This document shows positions 13,801 to 23,309 of a stretch of 37,954 bases of DNA, piece by piece. This DNA is from Dicyema japonicum (lineage: Eukaryota; Dicyemida; Rhombozoa; Dicyemidae): positions 12,726-50,679 of the forward strand of contig RDEW01000132.1 of NCBI GenBank assembly GCA_011109175.1. Reading direction: 5' to 3'. Numbering within the stretch: the first letter of the stretch is position 1; the number at the start of each line of letters is the position of its first letter. The translations under genes and the position numbers were made by a program. Under the pieces are notes generated by a model that saw only the letters and a program-made list of their open reading frames with translations, was not told where the DNA came from and made no database searches.

Positions 13801-14096
13801 TCGACATGGAGATCTTAATAGGCCTCGAAACAGAGTCGAAGGGCTATATTGTATGTTGATTAACACCACCAAGGGTCCAGGTGTTTAAGGTTAGTAAAGT
13901 TGTCGTTAAAGACCCTGCTTGATTTTATGTTGAAAAAAACCATAGACAGATAATATCGAGAATTTTGCAGGTGAGGCATATGGGTTAGTAAGAGAATAGA
14001 GGAATCCTATTGGAACCCAGGATCGGTCTTATATCAAACAACTTTATATAAAAAATAATAAATTATTCCAATAAAAAAGCAAAAAATTTATAAACT

Positions 14097-14976
14097 TCAG
14101 AAACTATCAGACTCATTATTTTGTTTGACGTCGGTGACGAACATGCCATTGGCAACAAGTAAAGACTCGTCTCTATCATTAAATTCACTAATCGTGGGGT
14201 CGATATTTTTAGATTCGTTGTTCAACTCTTTGAGAGGTTTATCCAATATAATAGATTCCTCTTCATAATTGTCCCAAGAAAATAGTTAAAAGTGATACCA
14301 AGTATGATTGTCATTACTACTTTCTTTTAAATTGTCACTATCTCTCATCATAGACATATCCTTAATATGGTAGTCGGTATTTTCGATACTTTTCGGTTTA
14401 AAATAATATAGTTTGCAAACTTTTTGGGATTTTGTTTTGATTTTTCCTAAAAATCAACGATTTATCAATTTACATTTTTAGTTTTATGACTTCAACAATT
14501 CTCATCCATTTCACAATTCGATAATGAATTGCACAATTCTACTAGTTATAAGATGAAAAAAATTATTATATTTTAATTAATTATGGCGGCATATGAAAAA
14601 TATACAGATCGACCATAAAGAAGTGTAAAAAAATAAATAAATATTAAATATTTTCCATCTAAAATAAAAATAAAATGTACTGTGATATAATGTCCTTACA
14701 TAATAAAGAGTCCACATCTACTGATCACTTTAGAATGATGCACCAAAGATAACTTCAATTGAAGACAAGTGTTTGATGAAAAGCTCTATGTTTACAATCT
14801 CTACCACAGCTGGACTTCAATTATCAACAAACAACATAAAGTCTGTCGTTTATTTTTTTAAAATTTATGAGGCTGTTTGATTGCGTGATTTTCAGTAATT
14901 TTTTGATGTCTTTTTTTTGGAAACCCCAATGTGTGGGTTTGAACGATTTCGTAGTATAAAGTAGTAGAGAAAATCT
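14097..14976 (-). CDS. Unidentified multi-exon gene with ultrashort introns
   Basis: I do not recognise the protein. On the minus strand the 3' part is convincing: 14491-14538 (YRIVKWMRIVE), 14421-14446, 14299-14388 (IENTDYHIKDMSMM), 14097-14274 (DNYEEESIILDKPLKELN to a TGA). Introns are 44 nt (14447-14490, GT-AG), 32 nt (14389-14420, GT-AG) and 24 nt (14275-14298, GT-TG, holding an in-frame TAA). The tail is acidic and Asn/Ser-rich. A likely 5' part is 14836-14976 (KPTHWGFQKKDIKKLLKI, then NFKKINDRLY), followed by a 21-nt GT-AG intron and a short exon (RDCKHRAFHQTL) that may continue across a 23-nt GT-TG gap into HHSKVISRCG. The link between the two halves is uncertain, and the 5' end lies at or beyond the scaffold join at 15018. 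Confidence 0.5.
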
Positions 14977-15018
14977 TTAGTGACTTCAGTATTGTCTCAT
15001 CACGAGGTATTAACATTN

Positions 15019-15227
15019 TATTGGAACCCAGGATCGGTCTTATATCAAACAACTTTATATAAAAAATAATAAATTATTCCAATAAAAAAGCAAAAAATTT
15101 ATAAACTTCAGAAACTATCAGACTCATTATTTTGTTTGACGTCGGTGACGAACATGCCATTGGCAACAAGTAAAGACTCGTCTCTATCATTAAATTCACT
15201 AATCGTGGGGTCGATATTTTTAGATTG
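15019..15227. repeat. 209-bp exact duplication at a single-N join
   Basis: Starting directly after the N at 15018, this is identical by eye to 14009-14217. It contains the last exon of the unidentified gene, then diverges in mid-exon. Overlapping contig ends or a haplotype fork is the simplest reading. Confidence 0.85.
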
Positions 15228-15239
15228 TTAAAATATCGT

Positions 15240-15350
15240 GGCGAAACAAATTAAATAGAATTAGGACATAGGAGAACTCCATGAGACCCAATTAAGAAGT
15301 AAGCTAGAAAGAAAATCATACAGCTATAGGTTTATGTTTGGATGCTATAG
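15240..15350 (+). repeat. Dispersed repeat, second copy
   Basis: Partner of 13690-13800. A short internal repeat (GCTATAGGTTTAT, twice near 15323-15356) follows. Confidence 0.55.
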
Positions 15351-15599
15351 GTTTATATTTTTTTATCCAGGAAAAGTCATCAAAAAACTAGAGAAAAAGA
15401 GAAACCGAAATAAGGTTGATTTTACAACTACTTCTGTAGATAGTAAAGGAAGTATAAATCTTCAGAACTCTGGACCATCCAAACATTGTAAAGTTTGTCG
15501 ACTTTTGAGGACCATCTAAAACCTTATCATATTATTGAAATCTCGAGCATAGAGTAGTATTACATCATTTTCAGTCATTGTTGAAAGATTTTTTGTTAA

Positions 15600-16250
15600 T
15601 GGGAACTACCTTGAAAGCACTGGAGATGCGAGAAGACTTGCATGCCTCAAAACGACTAGCTGCCATTCAGCAAATTCCTTACAGAACGCTTATCCTTGTG
15701 CCAAAATTGATAACCTGCATATTGTTGAGGCAGTGAGAATTGTCTAGTCTTAAAATGTGTGCGGAACGAAAATGTCGTTATGGCCGTTTGATATATTCAT
15801 ATGGTTATATTCTTCCACTGTAGAGCAAGTTGAGTGGTGGCCATTTCCAAAAGCAAGCCTGAATCAACGTGATGTTGAAAACACACTTTCATCTGTTGGC
15901 TACCACTGCAGTTTGAGACGACAGATCTCACCCAAGAAGATGGAAAACGCCCCGACGGGATGACAACATTCCCTTTTACTAATGGTCGGGTTTGGGAAGC
16001 TATGTATATTGATAAATACTCTCAGAAAAATTTGGCCGCTTCAGTCTCGTATAACAAGTCATACTTCTTAGCAAACCGACGATCGGAAGAGAAAGAAGTA
16101 CCGAAGCATTACGAGGATTATTTGTTTGTCCTATTTGCTGCGGATAATTCATGAATCCTTACTCCAAAAGCGGACGATCTAGTCAGTCGGAGCGGCTCAA
16201 TGATCCAAGGGGTCAACAAAGATCAACGTGAGACTAGATGATTTCGAAAG
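15600..16250 (+). pseudogene. LINE ORF2 C-terminus, frameshifted
   Basis: This is the end of a LINE polyprotein, split over frames. Readable blocks are MREDLHASKRLAAIQQIPYR, AERKCRYGRLIYSYGY, and DDNIPF / MTTFPFTNGR with a following DKYSQKNLAASVS. They match in order the minus-strand relic at 21560-22895 (AERKCRCGRWIDPFGYHPLS, GKRPDGMTTFPFANGR, VDTYSPSNLVASAS). The Cys and His residues of the CxCGxxxDxxGxHxLxC-type motif are mostly lost. Multiple stops and shifts make it inactive. Confidence 0.75.
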
Positions 16251-16387
16251 CTTATCCCGATTGGCATTTAGAGAAAACAGCATAGGTATTCAAGATCCTT
16301 TATTAAATGCTTTTTTGACAATTTTTTAAATAAAATTGGTTATTTATTGTAAAAACAAAATAAAATAAGCAAAATAGCCATACCCCT

Positions 16388-16500
16388 GCCGTCCTGATTG
16401 CGTGGGTATTCCCCCTCAGGGTAGCGAGCGAGAATTGCTCAAATAACAATCTGTACTCACAGGGGTTTCTTGTTCGTACATATATCTGATTCCTTAGACG
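16388..16500 (+). repeat. Palindrome-bearing dispersed repeat, copy 2
   Basis: GCCGTCCTGATTGCG, CCCCTCAGG, then a worn palindrome GAGCGAGAATTGCTC (16426-16440), CAAATAAC, CTCACAGG and TCCTTAGACGACC. Same order as 13053-13160. Confidence 0.7.
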
Positions 16501-17055
16501 ACCTGTTTTGTTATTATTTTTTCTGGGTGTTTTTGAGGACCAAATTGTTAGGATTTAACCCATTTGCCCAAACTTTTTTGTGGTACGCAGTTGCACATGT
16601 GTTGGGCCTTCAGGACTGGGATAGTTGTCAGGACCATAGGTCTCTCAGGGACCAAAAAATATGACTTTAAGATTTTGCATTTATTGATAACGCATTGGCA
16701 ACAATCCGAATGTTGTTTGAAGCTACGGTGTCTATTTACGAGACGTACGAGAATCGACTTCCTATCAGAAACAGAAAGATGGTCATTTCCAATTAAACGT
16801 TTTCCGTATCGTCTACAGTAACGAAGGGAAATAAATCTCCACCAAAGCTCGTTTTGTAAAATATTTAAAAAAATTGTTTAATGTTGATATTTATACTTGC
16901 CTCCGCCCAAAAAATGTAAAATTAAATCAAAGAGATAGCTGACTGCCATTATCAACCTTAAAAAGTTATTTCTTAAGATTCCTAGCTATTCCACTTAATA
17001 AGCTATAAGAACATTTTCAAAGAAATTAGGAAAATGATACAATACTAAACAATTG
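16501..17055. other. No gene seen; 3' flank of ECT2-like gene
   Basis: Two overlapping plus-strand frames (16470-16664, 16564-16821) are open but unrecognised and overlap the dispersed repeat. I take them as chance frames. From 16860 the sequence is AT-rich. Confidence 0.35.
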
Positions 17056-20000
17056 TTAATTAGTTTTCTTAACACAAAATCTACCGAGTATTCCAGATTT
17101 CGACTTTTTTTCAGAATTCATTTCTGACTTATTTTCAGTATTCTTTTCAGACTTTTTTTCAGAATTTTTTTCAATAATAGGAGAGAACTATCAATCAACT
17201 ATTTATGAACAATACAGCAGATCCGATTATACTCTTCATGCGAGAAATACGCTTTAAAACCGATGAATGGTACGAAAAAAGTGAAGTTGTCTCAATTCGA
17301 TCTGAATAATTGATAGAAGCCTAAAAATTATCCAGTTAATACCTTCGCAATATTCATATTCATGTTACTTTCTGAAGTTGTTTTAAACTTATTAAAACCC
17401 GAATTACCAAATGATAACATCCGAGTCAAACTATGCCTCAATCTAAATAAATTCAACAAAAACAAAAACCTTGACGATACTGACCGAATGACATTTGATG
17501 GAAGATTATCAATACCACAGTGAAAAATTAGCGAATTCTACATATAAAAAAAAACTTACGTTGCTGCAGGAGGTGGAATTACTGATATGATTTGCCAAAT
17601 CGTCAATAACCTTCTTTTTAACTTTGCAATCACTTATTTCTTCTCTAATAAGAGAGAATGCACAAATAAGCTCACTCATGAAATTAACCGAATGCCAACC
17701 CAATGCAAATATATAATCTGAATATAAAAAAGAAAAAAAACCGTCGTCATTTAAAAAAATGATGCGACGTATAAACGAATGAGGCAGCATTGCGATGTGT
17801 TTATATGGTTTTGTCTGTTTATATCCAGGAATGTTAATTTTTTTTCTACATTTGCACAACTAATAGCAATATTTGAATATGAAACCTCAATATGGTCGTT
17901 GAATACACAAATGATCATTTCGTCTCCTTCTTTTACCAGCAGGTTGGATAACTCTGTCACTTTAATTTTCATCAACAATTTGCGACTGGACGATTGCAAT
18001 GATCTCTTTGTTATTAAGATAATGAAAAACTGGACATTTGGATATATCATTTGTAAGATCAAGCAAACATGCATGATTATCATTTTTTTCACAAAACCGT
18101 TCAATCTTTCTAAAAATAAATATACTATAAAACAATAAAGAGTCTTGTAGCAAAGAAACTGTTTGAGTAAGAAATGAATAATCAGGAAACTTCTCTGGAG
18201 TGTACTTTAACATTTCTGGTCTAATAATAATAATCNCTCTTTGTTATTAAGATAATGAAAAACTGGACATTTGGAGATATCATTTGTAAGATCAAGCACA
18301 CATGCATGATTATCACTTTTTTCACAAAACCGTTCAATCTTTCTAAAAATAAATATACTATAAAACAATAAAGAATCTTGTAGCAAAGAAACTGTTTGAG
18401 TAAGAAATGAATAATCAGGAAACTTCTCTGGAGTGTACTTTAACATTTCTGGTCTAATAATAATAATCAGTAACCTTGCATGAGAAGTTTTGTCTGAGGA
18501 AGCCGTTGAATAGGTCTAATATAAAGATCAAGGAGTTTCTGTTTTGCACTCACTTCAAAAGACTCTTTAAGCTAAAAGTAACAAATAAATTTAAAAAAAT
18601 GATAAAAAATAAAAACAGCAAAATAAGATTAAAAAGGATTAACGAAAAAACCTTAACAAATGCCATGAATTTTGGTTTTTCGAACATCAAGTTTTTAAAT
18701 CGTTTAATTGCATCTTTGTAATTNNNNNNNNNNNNNNNNNNNNNNNNNNNNNNNNNNNNNNNNNNNNNNNNNNNNNNNNNNNNNNNNNNNNNNNNNNNNN
18801 NNNNNNNNNNNNNNNNNNNNNNNACATGCATGATTATCACTTTTTTCACAAAACCGTTCAATCTTTCTAAAAATAAATATACTATAAAACAATAAAGAAT
18901 CTTGTAGCAAAGAAACTGTTTGAGTAAGAAATGAATAATCAGGAAACTTCTCTGGAGTGTACTTTAACATTTCTGGTCTAATAATAATCAGTAACCTTGC
19001 ATGAGAAGTTTTGTCTGAGGAAGCCGTTGAATAGGTCTAATATAAAGATCAAGGAGTTTCTGATTTGCACTCACTTCAAATGACTCTTTAAGCTAAAAGT
19101 AACAAATAAATTTAAAAAAATGATAAAAAATAAAAACAGCAAAATAAGATTAAAAAGGATTAACGAAAAAACCTTAACAAATGCCATGAATTTTGGTTTT
19201 TCGACCATCAAGTTTTTAAATCGTTTAATTGCATCTTTGTAATTGTTCAGAAATCTCATGTAATATCGAGTAATTGGGTCAATCCTTTTAATATAAATTT
19301 CCCCAATTGATGCTTTATCGTTCCAATTAGCAGCAATTTCGGACATTTCTGATAAAATTGCTCTATGAATTTCATAAAGGTGATTTATAGTCCCAAAAAT
19401 ATAATTGATGTCAGAGATAGATATAAGTTTTTTCTTAGGATCATCGGCCAATTGGAAGAGCTCAGTGTAAATATTCTTAAATATAAAAATTCAAAGAAAA
19501 CTTTTCCAATAAACTCCAGTACACTACAATAATTTATTTCTGTATTGTAAAGCTCGTCAAATATACAAAGTCGCCTAGCATTGACTGCCGTTGAAGGCGT
19601 TTTCTTCTGGCCTTTCGAATAACTATTTGAAGACATTCCTAAACATTTAACAATTGCATCTTTTAGCCTTAAATTCTAATATTTATACTTGAGTGTGTGG
19701 AAGACGGCGAAGGTACCTTATTTTTTTCCTCAATAGAATTTTCGGAGAGAATAGATATGTTGACTGTACGCAACTGAGAGTTTGGCTTTTCTTCTACCAG
19801 TTCTGCCAGAGTAAATTGCTGTTTTTTGTCTGGAAGTTGAATATTCTACAATTTAAAAGAAATATACATTTAGACGAACCCCATAAGAGTTTACGTTCAT
19901 GTATATGTTAAGTTGGATGCATTTCCAGAACCACTGAAATCAAAAATTCAAGCAAACTTCCGAACTAACAACAACCACATTGAAATTTGAAATAATTGGG

Positions 20001-21126
20001 ATTTCCGAATCATTGTAATTTTCGAAAACAACCACGTGGGTACATTTAGAATTTATCATTTTAACATAAATACCATCAAATTATATAGGAAATAAACTAA
20101 CCATATTTACTTATTAAATAACTGTAGTGTTGCAAATCATCTTCTGAAGAAAGTCCTAAAAATGCAATGTGAAGACCATGGAAGCAATTGATTTGATGCT
20201 TCACCACGAAATCCTCCGATAGAGGATCGAAAGTTTCATCATCACGGGCTTTCCAAGACTCAATTATCCAAGAATCTGTTAGAACAGATATCCCCAGGGC
20301 TGAGCCTCGAGTTGCTTCAAAAGAATCGACTCGTTGACTTATGATGATTTGAATTTCTCGAGAAAAATGTTTTTTAACAAATGCCGACATATTATGAAGT
20401 AGCAAAATATAATTATCCTGATTAAGTTAAAAAAAACAGTATATAATTTATATATAAAATAAATGAAATTTCGACAAAAAATAAATATTTGAAAATTATA
20501 TAATTTTTTTTCGTAAAAATACTAAAATTGCTAAACAAATTTACGGATATGATGCAATTTAGCCAAAATATAATAATTTAATCGCAAAAATGTTATTCAA
20601 AACTTAAACTTTTGAATAAAATGACAATTTAATAATATTAATTACCAAGTAAATATGTTGATTTATGAGAAATTAAAAAATATATTAAAGTTGCTCAATC
20701 TACTTAAAAACAATAATTAGGATATGTTTACTAACCAAAGTTTCTCGATCAAAGCCCACGCTGAAGGAAATTGTTACATTTTTTAGTTTTTCGTTGTATG
20801 TTGGTCTCGTTAACCAAGGAATACTCTGTCAATCAACAAAAATCATACATCGTATTGTTTTACATAGTTTATGAACATTTTAGGACTAATGATAGATCTA
20901 ATGGTGTGTCGATTCGCCATAAAGGCATCTGATTCAAAATCGTTGGTGACTAAGCAATATTTTGCAACGTTTTTTAATGAAAATTCTGAAATATCATTAA
21001 TAAATAAAATTTTTTGACTAACACTCTATTTTTGATAAAATTGTTATTACAAACCATAGCGGCGCAATGAAGTTCCGAGTTTATGCTACTTGGCTGGATT
21101 CCAACAAATACTATAATTTTCTCCAT
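17056..21126 (-). CDS. ECT2: ECT2/Pebble-type RhoGEF, 18 exons
   Basis: ECT2 activates RhoA at the division plane in cytokinesis. Exons (minus): 21055-21126, 20864-21025, 20736-20825, 20102-20417, 19958-20073, 19895-19933, 19689-19845, 19502-19659, 19173-19475, 18996-19092, 18126-18215 with 18031-18101, 17886-18005, 17742-17859, 17560-17717, 17470-17537, 17343-17442, 17216-17320, 17056-17187. Frame holds throughout, giving about 823 residues (human ECT2 about 880-910). Order: three BRCT-like regions (GSALGISVLTDSWIIESWK; CTHVVV; EWFWKCIQ), DH (FDELYNTEINYCSVLEFIGK; NYIFGTINHLYEIH; WNDKASIGEIY; LYIRPIQRLPQTKLLMQ), PH (MIICVFNDHIE; KHIAMLP), basic tail (SVSSRLRHSLTRMLSFG), and an EKNSEKKSEKN-like repeat ending SGILGRFCVKKTN. 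Intron lengths in order: 29, 38, 318, 28, 24, 49, 29, 26, 80, 23, 24, 25, 26, 24, 22, 27, 22, 28 nt. The assembly breaks inside the eleventh exon. No promoter recognised; an AG at 21140-21141 could accept a spliced leader. Confidence 0.92.
18102..18125 (-). other. 24-nt GT-TG intron in the DH domain
   Basis: The unspliced frame would add exactly eight residues (YSIFIFRK region) to the last DH helix relative to animal ECT2. Removing 24 nt from GTATAT to AAGATTG keeps the frame and gives gap-free alignment into DNHACLLDLTNDISKCP. The nearby GT-AG options are 16 or 20 nt and shift the frame. Alternatively the eight residues are a real insertion. Confidence 0.45.
18237..18723 (-). repeat. Duplicate haplotype copy of ECT2 DH exons
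   Basis: These bases repeat 18824-19245 and overlap 17995-18235, covering the end of the ninth exon, the tenth (18475-18571) and part of the eleventh. They are bounded by an N at 18236 and a 100-N gap. The copies differ by a few substitutions: Asn/Lys in SANQK, Val/Phe in NLMVEKP, Leu/Val and Asn/Ser in the eleventh exon. They also differ by 3 bp in the short intron (26 nt here, 23 nt at 18973-18995). This pattern fits allelic contigs placed end to end. Confidence 0.85.
18724..18823. other. 100-N assembly gap
   Basis: A fixed-length gap of exactly 100 N inside the ECT2-like gene. No exon seems to be lost in it, because the flanks overlap. Confidence 0.95.
20074..20101 (-). other. 28-nt GT-TG intron in the ECT2-like gene
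   Basis: The preceding exon ends in codons for SKY and runs straight into an in-frame TAG. There is no AG between that TAG and the codons for CTHVVV, so a canonical acceptor is impossible. Removing 28 nt from GTTAGT to TTTGATG restores the frame and the BRCT alignment. The direct repeat ATGGT flanks it, so the exact cut is ambiguous by a few bases, but only one register has GT at its start. Confidence 0.6.
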
Positions 21127-21559: not shown

Positions 21560-22895
21560 ACCTTGGTCACAGCTTGAATCATGGAGCCGATCTTACGAAC
21601 CAACTCATCTGCTTGAGGGCCAAGGATTCCTGACGTTTCCACTGCGAATGGAACAAAAAGATACTCCTCCGAAATTCTCTGGTACTTCCTCCTCTTTCGT
21701 TACTCGGCCTGCTTTGAAGCATGTCCTGGGTCTGAAGCAGAAGCAACCAAATTAGACGGGGAATAAGTATCAACACACGTCGCGTCCCAGATCAGGTTTC
21801 GTCCGTTGGCGAATGGAAAAGTCGTCATCCCATCAGGGCGTTTTCCATCGTTTCGGCAAAGACCACCAGGTTCTAATAGGCAATGGTGTCCTGCAGAGGC
21901 AAAGGAATTCTTTAATGTCATGTTAAGACAGGAGTGCCAGGGGAAACGACCCGCACTCATCTTGCATGACAAGGGATGATAACCAAAAGGATCGATCCAA
22001 CGTCCACAGCGGCATTTTCTTTCGGCACACAATTTAAGACCAAGACGAAGCGAGGTAGCTATTCTCACAGCCTCATCATCCAACAAGTTTCCAATTTCGG
22101 CAGATGGATAAGCGTACAGCGGCATTTTCTTTCGGCACACAATTTAAGACCAAGACGAAGCGAGGTAGCTATTCTCACAGCCTCATCATCCAACAAGTTT
22201 CCAATTTCGGCAGATGGATAAGCGTTCATCCAGGCCCACGTCTAGTGGCAACTGGCTGTTTTGAGGCTGGCTCAGCCTTCTTACATCTTCCGTCTTTTCA
22301 AGGGACTCTTTCTTCTTTTCGAAGACACAAAACAAATAGGACTTTTGCTTATCACAATTGACCGGAGCATCCAGGTACAAATTCATCCATTCATCCCAGG
22401 CTCCCGACGGCTTCGGCGGTACGTTTAGTCAGGAAGTAGAGTGAAGGACCGTATCCACTAAACGCCTTGACGATCCGAACGAAGATAAATAGGCGCGAAA
22501 AGCAACGTCCGAAGGAAGAGAAAGACCCAAACCACCGCAGGCTACAGGGAGTGAGGCCTGTAACCAACCGAAATCATCCAAAAGAACATTAAGAATGGAC
22601 CCCATCGTCGACCGGATATCCATATCAATTAACGATAGAAGGTCTTTTTCGGCGTAGCATGGGGATCCCAGTAGAATAAAAAAGAGTTTTGGAAGAAGGA
22701 GACAATTCTTCAGCATAAAAAAGGCGACATGTCGGTCCAAAAAACTCATCCTGTCGGCATACTGACGTAAATTAGTCCTTTTGCCTTCCAATAACTCCCT
22801 TACCCGGTTTACCAAAATCCCACACCCAAGGAAGTCGAGAGAATCAATATGAGTCTCCCTAACCCCTGGGATGATTTCGCAGAGTTTTCTATGAA
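21560..22895 (-). pseudogene. LINE ORF2, post-RT to C-terminus
   Basis: This is the longest LINE relic in the window, read right to left. 22895-22429 gives ETHIDSLDFLGCGILVNRVR, then HVAFFMLKNCLLLPKLFFIL, DFGWLQASLPVACGGLGLSL and FRAYLSSFG. After frame changes, 22140-21700 gives IATSLRLGLKLCAERKCRCG, WIDPFGYHPLSC, SAGHHCLLEPGGLCRNDGKR and PDGMTTFPFANGR. The thumb-like QASLP/GGLGL block and the C-terminal Cys/His motif, followed by a conserved GKRPDG segment, are typical of a LINE group common in marine invertebrate genomes. A perfect 110-bp tandem duplication interrupts the frame. The reverse-transcriptase core lies beyond 22895 and is not recognisable. Confidence 0.85.
22006..22225. repeat. 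Perfect 110-bp tandem duplication
   Basis: 22006-22115 and 22116-22225 are identical by eye. The length is not a multiple of three, so the LINE frame it lies in is broken. Confidence 0.9.
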
Positions 22896-23309
22896 AAAAA
22901 AGTGGATATACAAATTTAAAATTTCCTTTTTCGTAAAAAGTATTCTATATACTAAAATTTATCAATTACAATCATTTTTCGTTTTTTTCTGAATTTCCAA
23001 TTAAGAGGTTCCTTTTTTTTCCTTTTCCTACCAAGACAAACTTTCCCGCAGTTCGATATTTCAGACTAAAATAAAAATTTCAGAAAACTAATTCAATTGA
23101 AAAAGGCTCAATTCTAAATTTGGCATCTTTAAGTTCTACAGAATGCTCAATCTAAAGTTATATATTAGTTTTACTTTCTTTCGTTTGTGGATGTATACAT
23201 TTGAATTGTAATTTCTGGGCAAACTATCTAAAAAAACGACAATGAAGACATAAATTGCAATGAAAGAAGCAGCCTTTACCTGAGCCGAAAAGATGCATGC
23301 CAGCTTTGA

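Follow-up and report, generated by a model that had tools for sequence, protein, structure and literature searches.

Does the ECT2-like gene of Dicyema japonicum carry an intron that is removed at TG rather than at AG, and is such an ending a recurrent property of the ultrashort introns of this organism? A preliminary description of the 37,954-nucleotide stretch of DNA analysed here (the window; C37:12726-50679, in a genome of 64.67 Mb and 191 contigs) had proposed four short GT-TG introns, two in the ECT2-like gene (cases 1 and 2) and two in a second gene (cases 3 and 4). We drew the ECT2-like exons by hand, preferring GT-AG introns wherever the frame was kept. The resulting product matched the Pfam families RhoGEF (E 8.7e-31) and BRCT (E 3e-12) as well as PDB entry 6l30_A ("Protein ECT2"; E 1.9e-49), which we take to be human ECT2; the ECT2 comparison rests on PDB and Pfam. 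Around case 1, the model comprises the following features:

18891..21126, minus strand: hand-modelled part of the ECT2-like gene, 11 exons, 540 codons
20102..20417, minus strand: exon 4 of the model, upstream of case 1
20074..20101, minus strand: case 1, candidate GT-TG intron of 28 nt, GTTAGTTTATTTCCTATATAATTTGATG, phase 1, in the second BRCT domain
20077..20101, minus strand: alternative case 1 cut of 25 nt, ending TTTG and thus GT-TG as well
19958..20073, minus strand: exon 5, beginning IYVKMINSKCTHVVVFENYN, downstream of case 1
20074-20078 in the window, 186545-186549 in the second copy on contig C117: case 1 acceptor letters

The letters at 20101-20074 were as first described, with in-frame stops in the segment and no AG ahead of the conserved CTHVVV block. 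Past the GTTAG of the donor itself, no AG occurs in the window copy before 7 nt from the end of exon 5, and the next AG ends 137 nt from the donor (81 nt in the C117 copy). With 28 nt removed, AAATATG is joined to GTATTTATG and the product aligns to ECT2 (6l30_A) without a gap across the junction. The 25-nt cut (TTTG/ATG; slash, splice site) joins AAATATG to ATGGTATTTATG, yielding a product one residue longer. In the window copy the BRCT score was 33.4 bits with the 25-nt cut versus 30.8 bits with the 28-nt cut; it was 27.4 bits in the C117 copy after TG splicing, and the unspliced pieces reached 16.9 bits or gave no match. The acceptor context scored 1.79 for the 28-nt cut versus -0.37 for the 25-nt cut, short GT-AG introns scoring 1.23. 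The donor scored 4.51, compared to a median of 3.73 (interquartile range 2.85-4.78) for 376 short GT-AG introns. Case 1 thus presents a GT in the donor consensus context of this genome, as in U2-type introns, and departs from that type at its 3' end, which is TG in both copies. U12-type introns bear the donor motif RTATCCTT, which GTTAGT does not match, and cytoplasmic splicing of the IRE1/RtcB type employs paired hairpin cleavage loops.

Support for case 1 comes from the second copy. A DNA search with 19700-20420 retrieved two places, the window itself and C117:186187-186890 (88%). The C117 copy (L071) is 84-89% identical to the ECT2-like gene of the window, and its counterpart of case 1, GTTAGTTTTTTCCTATATAATTTGATG, is 27 nt long compared to 28 nt in the window and also ends in TG; a 1-nt difference in length between intact flanking frames is what an intron allows. 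The direct repeat ATGGT, which had been thought to flank case 1, is not conserved, the second copy reading ACGGT...ATGGT. All other introns of the model (9/9) are GT-AG in both copies. Over 537 codons (three were excluded for gaps), omega between the copies is 0.40 with no stops (0.35 for the part upstream of case 1, 0.45 for the part downstream), at 221 differences in 1611 codon sites (13.7%). Neutral simulation with 222 substitutions produced a mean of 8.5 stops, and none of 2000 runs remained stop-free. A TG common to two diverged, jointly constrained copies makes a base error unlikely.

We then searched for joins with GT-AG or GC-AG ends, 15-400 nt in length, that preserve the frame and introduce no stop; donors were allowed between 90 nt upstream and 12 nt downstream of the exon 4 end, and acceptors as far as the last position of exon 5. 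Two such joins exist in the window copy and eight in the C117 copy. Two of them lie at equal offsets in both copies: one of 133/132 nt with GT-AG ends, the only GT-AG alternative that the copies share, and a longer one of 169/168 nt with GC-AG ends. The first of these is:

19965..20097, minus strand: shared GT-AG alternative of 133 nt (132 nt in C117), coordinates derived from the offsets

The GT-AG join stops 7 nt short of the end of exon 5, the exon sequence after it beginning TTCGGAA. It removes the CTHVVV core, and its product has no Pfam match, BRCT included. The GC-AG join costs the core plus further sequence. An 81-nt GT-AG option in C117 scored 13.7 bits for BRCT and uses an AG that the window copy lacks. 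Within the searched range, no frame-keeping AG acceptor leaves the BRCT core intact.

These joins bear on the possibility that both ECT2-like copies are past needing a TG splice, either because they are decaying or because a working transcript is made through the 133/132-nt GT-AG intron with half of the second BRCT domain gone. Such an explanation is possible though not one we favour. It would draw on the stop-free, in-frame GT-AG option in both copies, on two frame-breaking gaps in the C117 copy (2 nt in exon 2 and 1 nt in exon 9), given which that copy may be decaying, and on exon 5, where constraint by itself is not significant (55% of neutral simulations were stop-free, and the third-position count was reached in 11%). 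Against it stand an omega of 0.40 with no stops over 537 codons, the absence of any Pfam match for the skipped product, and the sequence in and around CTHVVV, which continues to match BRCT in both copies and, in the window copy, ECT2. The better explanation in our view, with a probability of roughly 0.6, is a real mini-intron of U2 type at case 1 that has no terminal AG and would be removed at TG after 25 nt (TTTG) or 28 nt (GATG); the conserved sequence is best read as a constitutive TG acceptor.

For the remaining cases, canonical splicing was either found or available. The relevant features are:

18110..18133, minus strand: canonical GT-AG intron of 24 nt replacing case 2, GTTTTATAGTATATTTATTTTTAG
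14275..14298, minus strand: case 3 segment, GT-TG, 24 nt
14744..14766, minus strand: GT-TG 23-mer nearest to case 4, next to GT-AG segments 23 and 26 nt long
18236..18823: assembly artefact, with a single-N joint at 18236, a 100-N gap at 18724-18823 and near-identical ECT2-like exon repeats around it
15018: joint of one N, next to a near-identical copy of 14013-14222 (210 nt, 97%)

Case 2 (18125-18102) had been proposed because its removal deletes exactly eight extra residues. The letters exist, but a GT-TG cut is not needed, as exactly eight codons are likewise lost with the canonical intron 18133-18110; the second copy likewise has a 24-nt GT-AG intron at this site (GTTTCATTGCATATTTATTTTTAG), and case 2 was rejected as a GT-TG intron. 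At case 3 (14298-14275), GTATCACTTTTAACTATTTTCTTG does contain the in-frame TAA reported for it, but a cut at TG is not required, since stop-free, in-frame GT-AG introns of 57, 60 and 78 nt also connect the two open frames. The segment lies in poorly assembled sequence, adjoining the local repeat (97%) whose end is marked by an N joint. A copy on C56 (99%) ends at an N joint exactly at the segment and is hence uninformative, and a copy on C117 (66%), whose frames appear disrupted, has ATAG/GGACA, with its AG, at the corresponding position. As judged from the sequence, case 3 is a weak candidate for a GT-TG intron. The interval given for case 4, 14772-14750, neither starts with GT nor finishes with TG, and this case was rejected as misplaced and with canonical neighbours. 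Moreover, segments of 20-30 nt on the minus strand that run from GT to TG occur at a chance density of 34.9 per kb versus 30.7 per kb for GT to AG; at such a density, the mere presence of a GT-TG segment close to an interruption does not count as evidence.

The ECT2-like gene, too, sits in badly joined sequence, some of its exons occurring two or three times near N joints in a pattern as from gap closing. Reading frames that by their appearance are reverse transcriptase-like and belong to a mobile element lie on the minus strand at 21700-22944 of the window.

To place these cases among the introns of the genome, we applied a home-made semi-Markov gene finder to 235,609 bp in 53 merged intervals. 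This sample, neither random nor blind to the finding, consisted of loci at Cpn60_TCP1, protein kinase and tRNA-synthetase matches, eight pattern loci, the window and the second ECT2 copy. The training decode gave 430 introns with a length peak at 23 nt, and about 73 kb were called coding. When other dinucleotides were allowed, a stricter decode returned 426 GT-AG introns plus three others, and a looser one 421 GT-AG introns plus five others, two of them GC-AG. With acceptor and donor exceptions separated, there were 419 GT-AG introns, nine non-AG acceptors and twelve non-GT donors, so that non-AG acceptors were no more frequent than the noise represented by donor exceptions. Three of the nine were GT-TG: the C117 ECT2 intron, C133:300003 and C83:259165. 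Among the others, three were rejected. The GT-AA call at C137:437667, within a valyl-tRNA synthetase-like gene, is accounted for by a GT-AG intron of 25 nt together with the loss of one G; a GT-TT call (C126:711804) by a 19-nt GT-AG intron recognized by eye; and a GT-CT call (C137:440139) reproduces a canonical intron in shifted position. A further GT-TT call (C37:31672) lies within the duplicated ECT2 stretch, and GT-GA (C53:266272) and GT-CT (C45:589949) calls are at or near the edge of a sampled interval. The window's own case 1 was uncalled in every decode. When AG was changed to TG in the 376 short introns, 115 were recovered exactly and 177 nearby (about 47%), a limited sensitivity that would allow a TG share of up to about 1%. 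A count of DNA patterns gave 111 matches versus 140 in a reversed control and is uninformative on splicing.

The repeated GT-TG pattern of the preliminary description did not hold up, case 2 being canonical, case 3 having canonical options, case 4 being misplaced and 419 introns being called as GT-AG. TG acceptance is supported at case 1, through the second copy, but not as a repeated property of ultrashort introns. By the conservation of its sequence, case 1 is the only one of the four to gain real support; it is a rare exception in an otherwise GT-AG genome, in which the other three cases are unnecessary.

The two GT-TG calls outside ECT2-like genes are:

C133:300003, acceptor 299979-299980: GT-TG candidate of 25 nt between DWWCLGIVIYYMYFRK and FPYLKMD, in a kinase gene
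C83:259165, acceptor 259143-259144: GT-TG candidate of 23 nt

With a 24-nt GT-GG segment and the 25-nt GT-TG segment both removed, the C133 product keeps the HRD, DFG and DWW motifs and scores 165.4 bits for Pkinase; the score is 149.9 bits with the 24-nt segment retained and 151.5 bits with a GT-AG skip replacing the GT-TG cut. The 24-nt segment, GTTCGTTCTTTTTGCCCACCTTGG at C133:300247 on the minus strand (L067), is in frame and splits the kinase HRD motif, and would be GT-GG if it were an intron. It ranked 97th among 16757 scored segments, indicating that hidden in-frame introns cannot be separated from coding sequence by score. Seven further, kinase-like places in the genome match the C133 gene at 67-70% (on C16, C109, C117 and C133; L062 and L087-L092), and at the DWW intron all seven have AG (short pieces of six, plus L062). 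The sole relative compared over its full length, L062 on C117, reads HSD (if spliced) and NFH versus HRD and DFG in C133. At C83, none of the MIT scores reached the Pfam cut-off of 30: the TG cut gave 21.4 bits, read-through 18.2 bits and a GT-AG cut 14.7 bits. Both the C133 and the C83 candidate can be explained by a single missing base, a lesion that recurs in this assembly.

One-base lesions were seen at several sites. A CCT epsilon-like gene at C181:714337-715969, with GT-AG introns of 22-24 nt, has one at KLDIT/VEDY (by eye), and others lie in the valyl-tRNA synthetase-like gene and in two C45 kinases. In a PKA-like gene (C101:666466, minus strand; L041) a donor appears as GA, as would result if GTAATTG had lost a T. 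Gene names (Tec-like, PLK-like, PKA-like, ULK3-like, CCT epsilon and valyl-tRNA synthetase) are presumptive, the family matches obtained being Pkinase, MIT, Cpn60_TCP1 and tRNA-synt_1 only.

Lesions of this kind raise the question whether the GT-TG candidates are assembly errors in which TAG became TG by loss of an A. Besides the lesions in seemingly conserved genes (CCT epsilon-like, valyl-tRNA synthetase-like and the two C45 kinases) and the C101 donor, which would be GT with its T missing, 11 indel events, one or more of which fall in a frame resembling that of a mobile element, were decoded in the roughly 73 kb called coding. An error of this type would suit C133, C83 and case 3. At case 1, however, two independent errors would have to hit one and the same base in loci that differ at 13.7% of codon sites, and as an account of the candidates we regard assembly error as very improbable.

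A further possibility is that, in a regular minority of about 1% of its mini-introns, this organism relies on constitutive TTG acceptors. The occurrence of case 1 in both copies, the Pkinase score of the spliced C133 product (165.4 versus 151.5 bits with the in-frame GT-AG skip) and, below the Pfam cut-off, the MIT scores at C83 all point in this direction, and a finder that recovers 177 of 376 altered introns could have missed others. Yet the nine non-AG acceptor calls (three TG) show no excess over the twelve non-GT donor calls, one-base deletions can explain C133 and C83, and AG stands at the matching intron in all seven C133 relatives, making such a minority unlikely. We consider it quite unlikely, too, that the spliceosome constitutively uses TTG (perhaps also GG) 3' splice sites in about 1% of minimal introns, picking them by their spacing from the branch region and not by AG, notwithstanding a U2AF35 homologue.

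Based on the DNA and its conservation, we infer that the exons at case 1 are joined at TG by the spliceosome in vivo. One conserved GT-TG mini-intron is probably real, and the TG end in both diverged copies hints that the splicing machinery is able to use TG there. The donor and the branch/polypyrimidine region probably commit the intron to splicing, with the second step then probably falling on the closest site that can be tolerated, at a fixed and short spacing. A U2AF35 homologue is present at C88:973792-974433 (identity 49-66%), so loss of this reader of AG was rejected as the reason for TG use.

The introns surveyed here resemble the ultrashort introns reported for dicyemids, with lengths near 23-27 nt, several per gene, and a peak at 23 nt compared to a mean of 26.2 nt (n = 16 introns; PMC2222250) and, in Dicyema sp., a median of 27 bp (PMC6543705); genome size and GC (0.378 in the DNA analysed) likewise resemble the 67.5 Mb and 36.7% GC given for Dicyema japonicum (PMC6736024). 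According to the excerpted text of PMC2483917, dicyemid introns lack a branch-point signature and show the weakest signal at the 5' boundary, and such weak signals would suit a splice site set by spacing. TG acceptors, present in case 1, do not figure in the excerpts of the dicyemid intron papers (PMC2222250, PMC6543705, PMC6736024), and among the papers found by literature searches no title or abstract opening reports non-canonical splicing or short GT-TG introns in dicyemids.

Case 1 is also like the U2-like non-canonical introns of human (PMC4176328) and plants (PMC6310983) in combining a rare non-AG acceptor with an otherwise normal consensus, those surveys resting on RNA-seq and case 1 on DNA conservation. 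If real, it would be a warning that GT-AG-only annotation of short-intron genomes breaks real genes.

The closest counterparts are the TG 3' splice sites of human U2-type introns, among them GNAS intron 3 (Szafranski et al. 2007, PMC2374985), which share with case 1 a TG acceptor behind a GT donor in a coding gene, U2-type signals and TTG, CTG or ATG contexts. In the excerpted text of that report, the human TG acceptors are alternative partners of an AG, sought at up to 36 nt, and none is constitutive. Case 1 differs in that, past the donor's own GTTAG, no AG lies within 36 nt (the next ending 137 nt from the donor in the window and 81 nt in C117), in that the intron measures 24-28 nt, and in that use of the next AG would cost the BRCT core. 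A constitutive TG without a close AG, in a 24-28-nt intron and in two copies, would test the need for AG near the minimum intron size.
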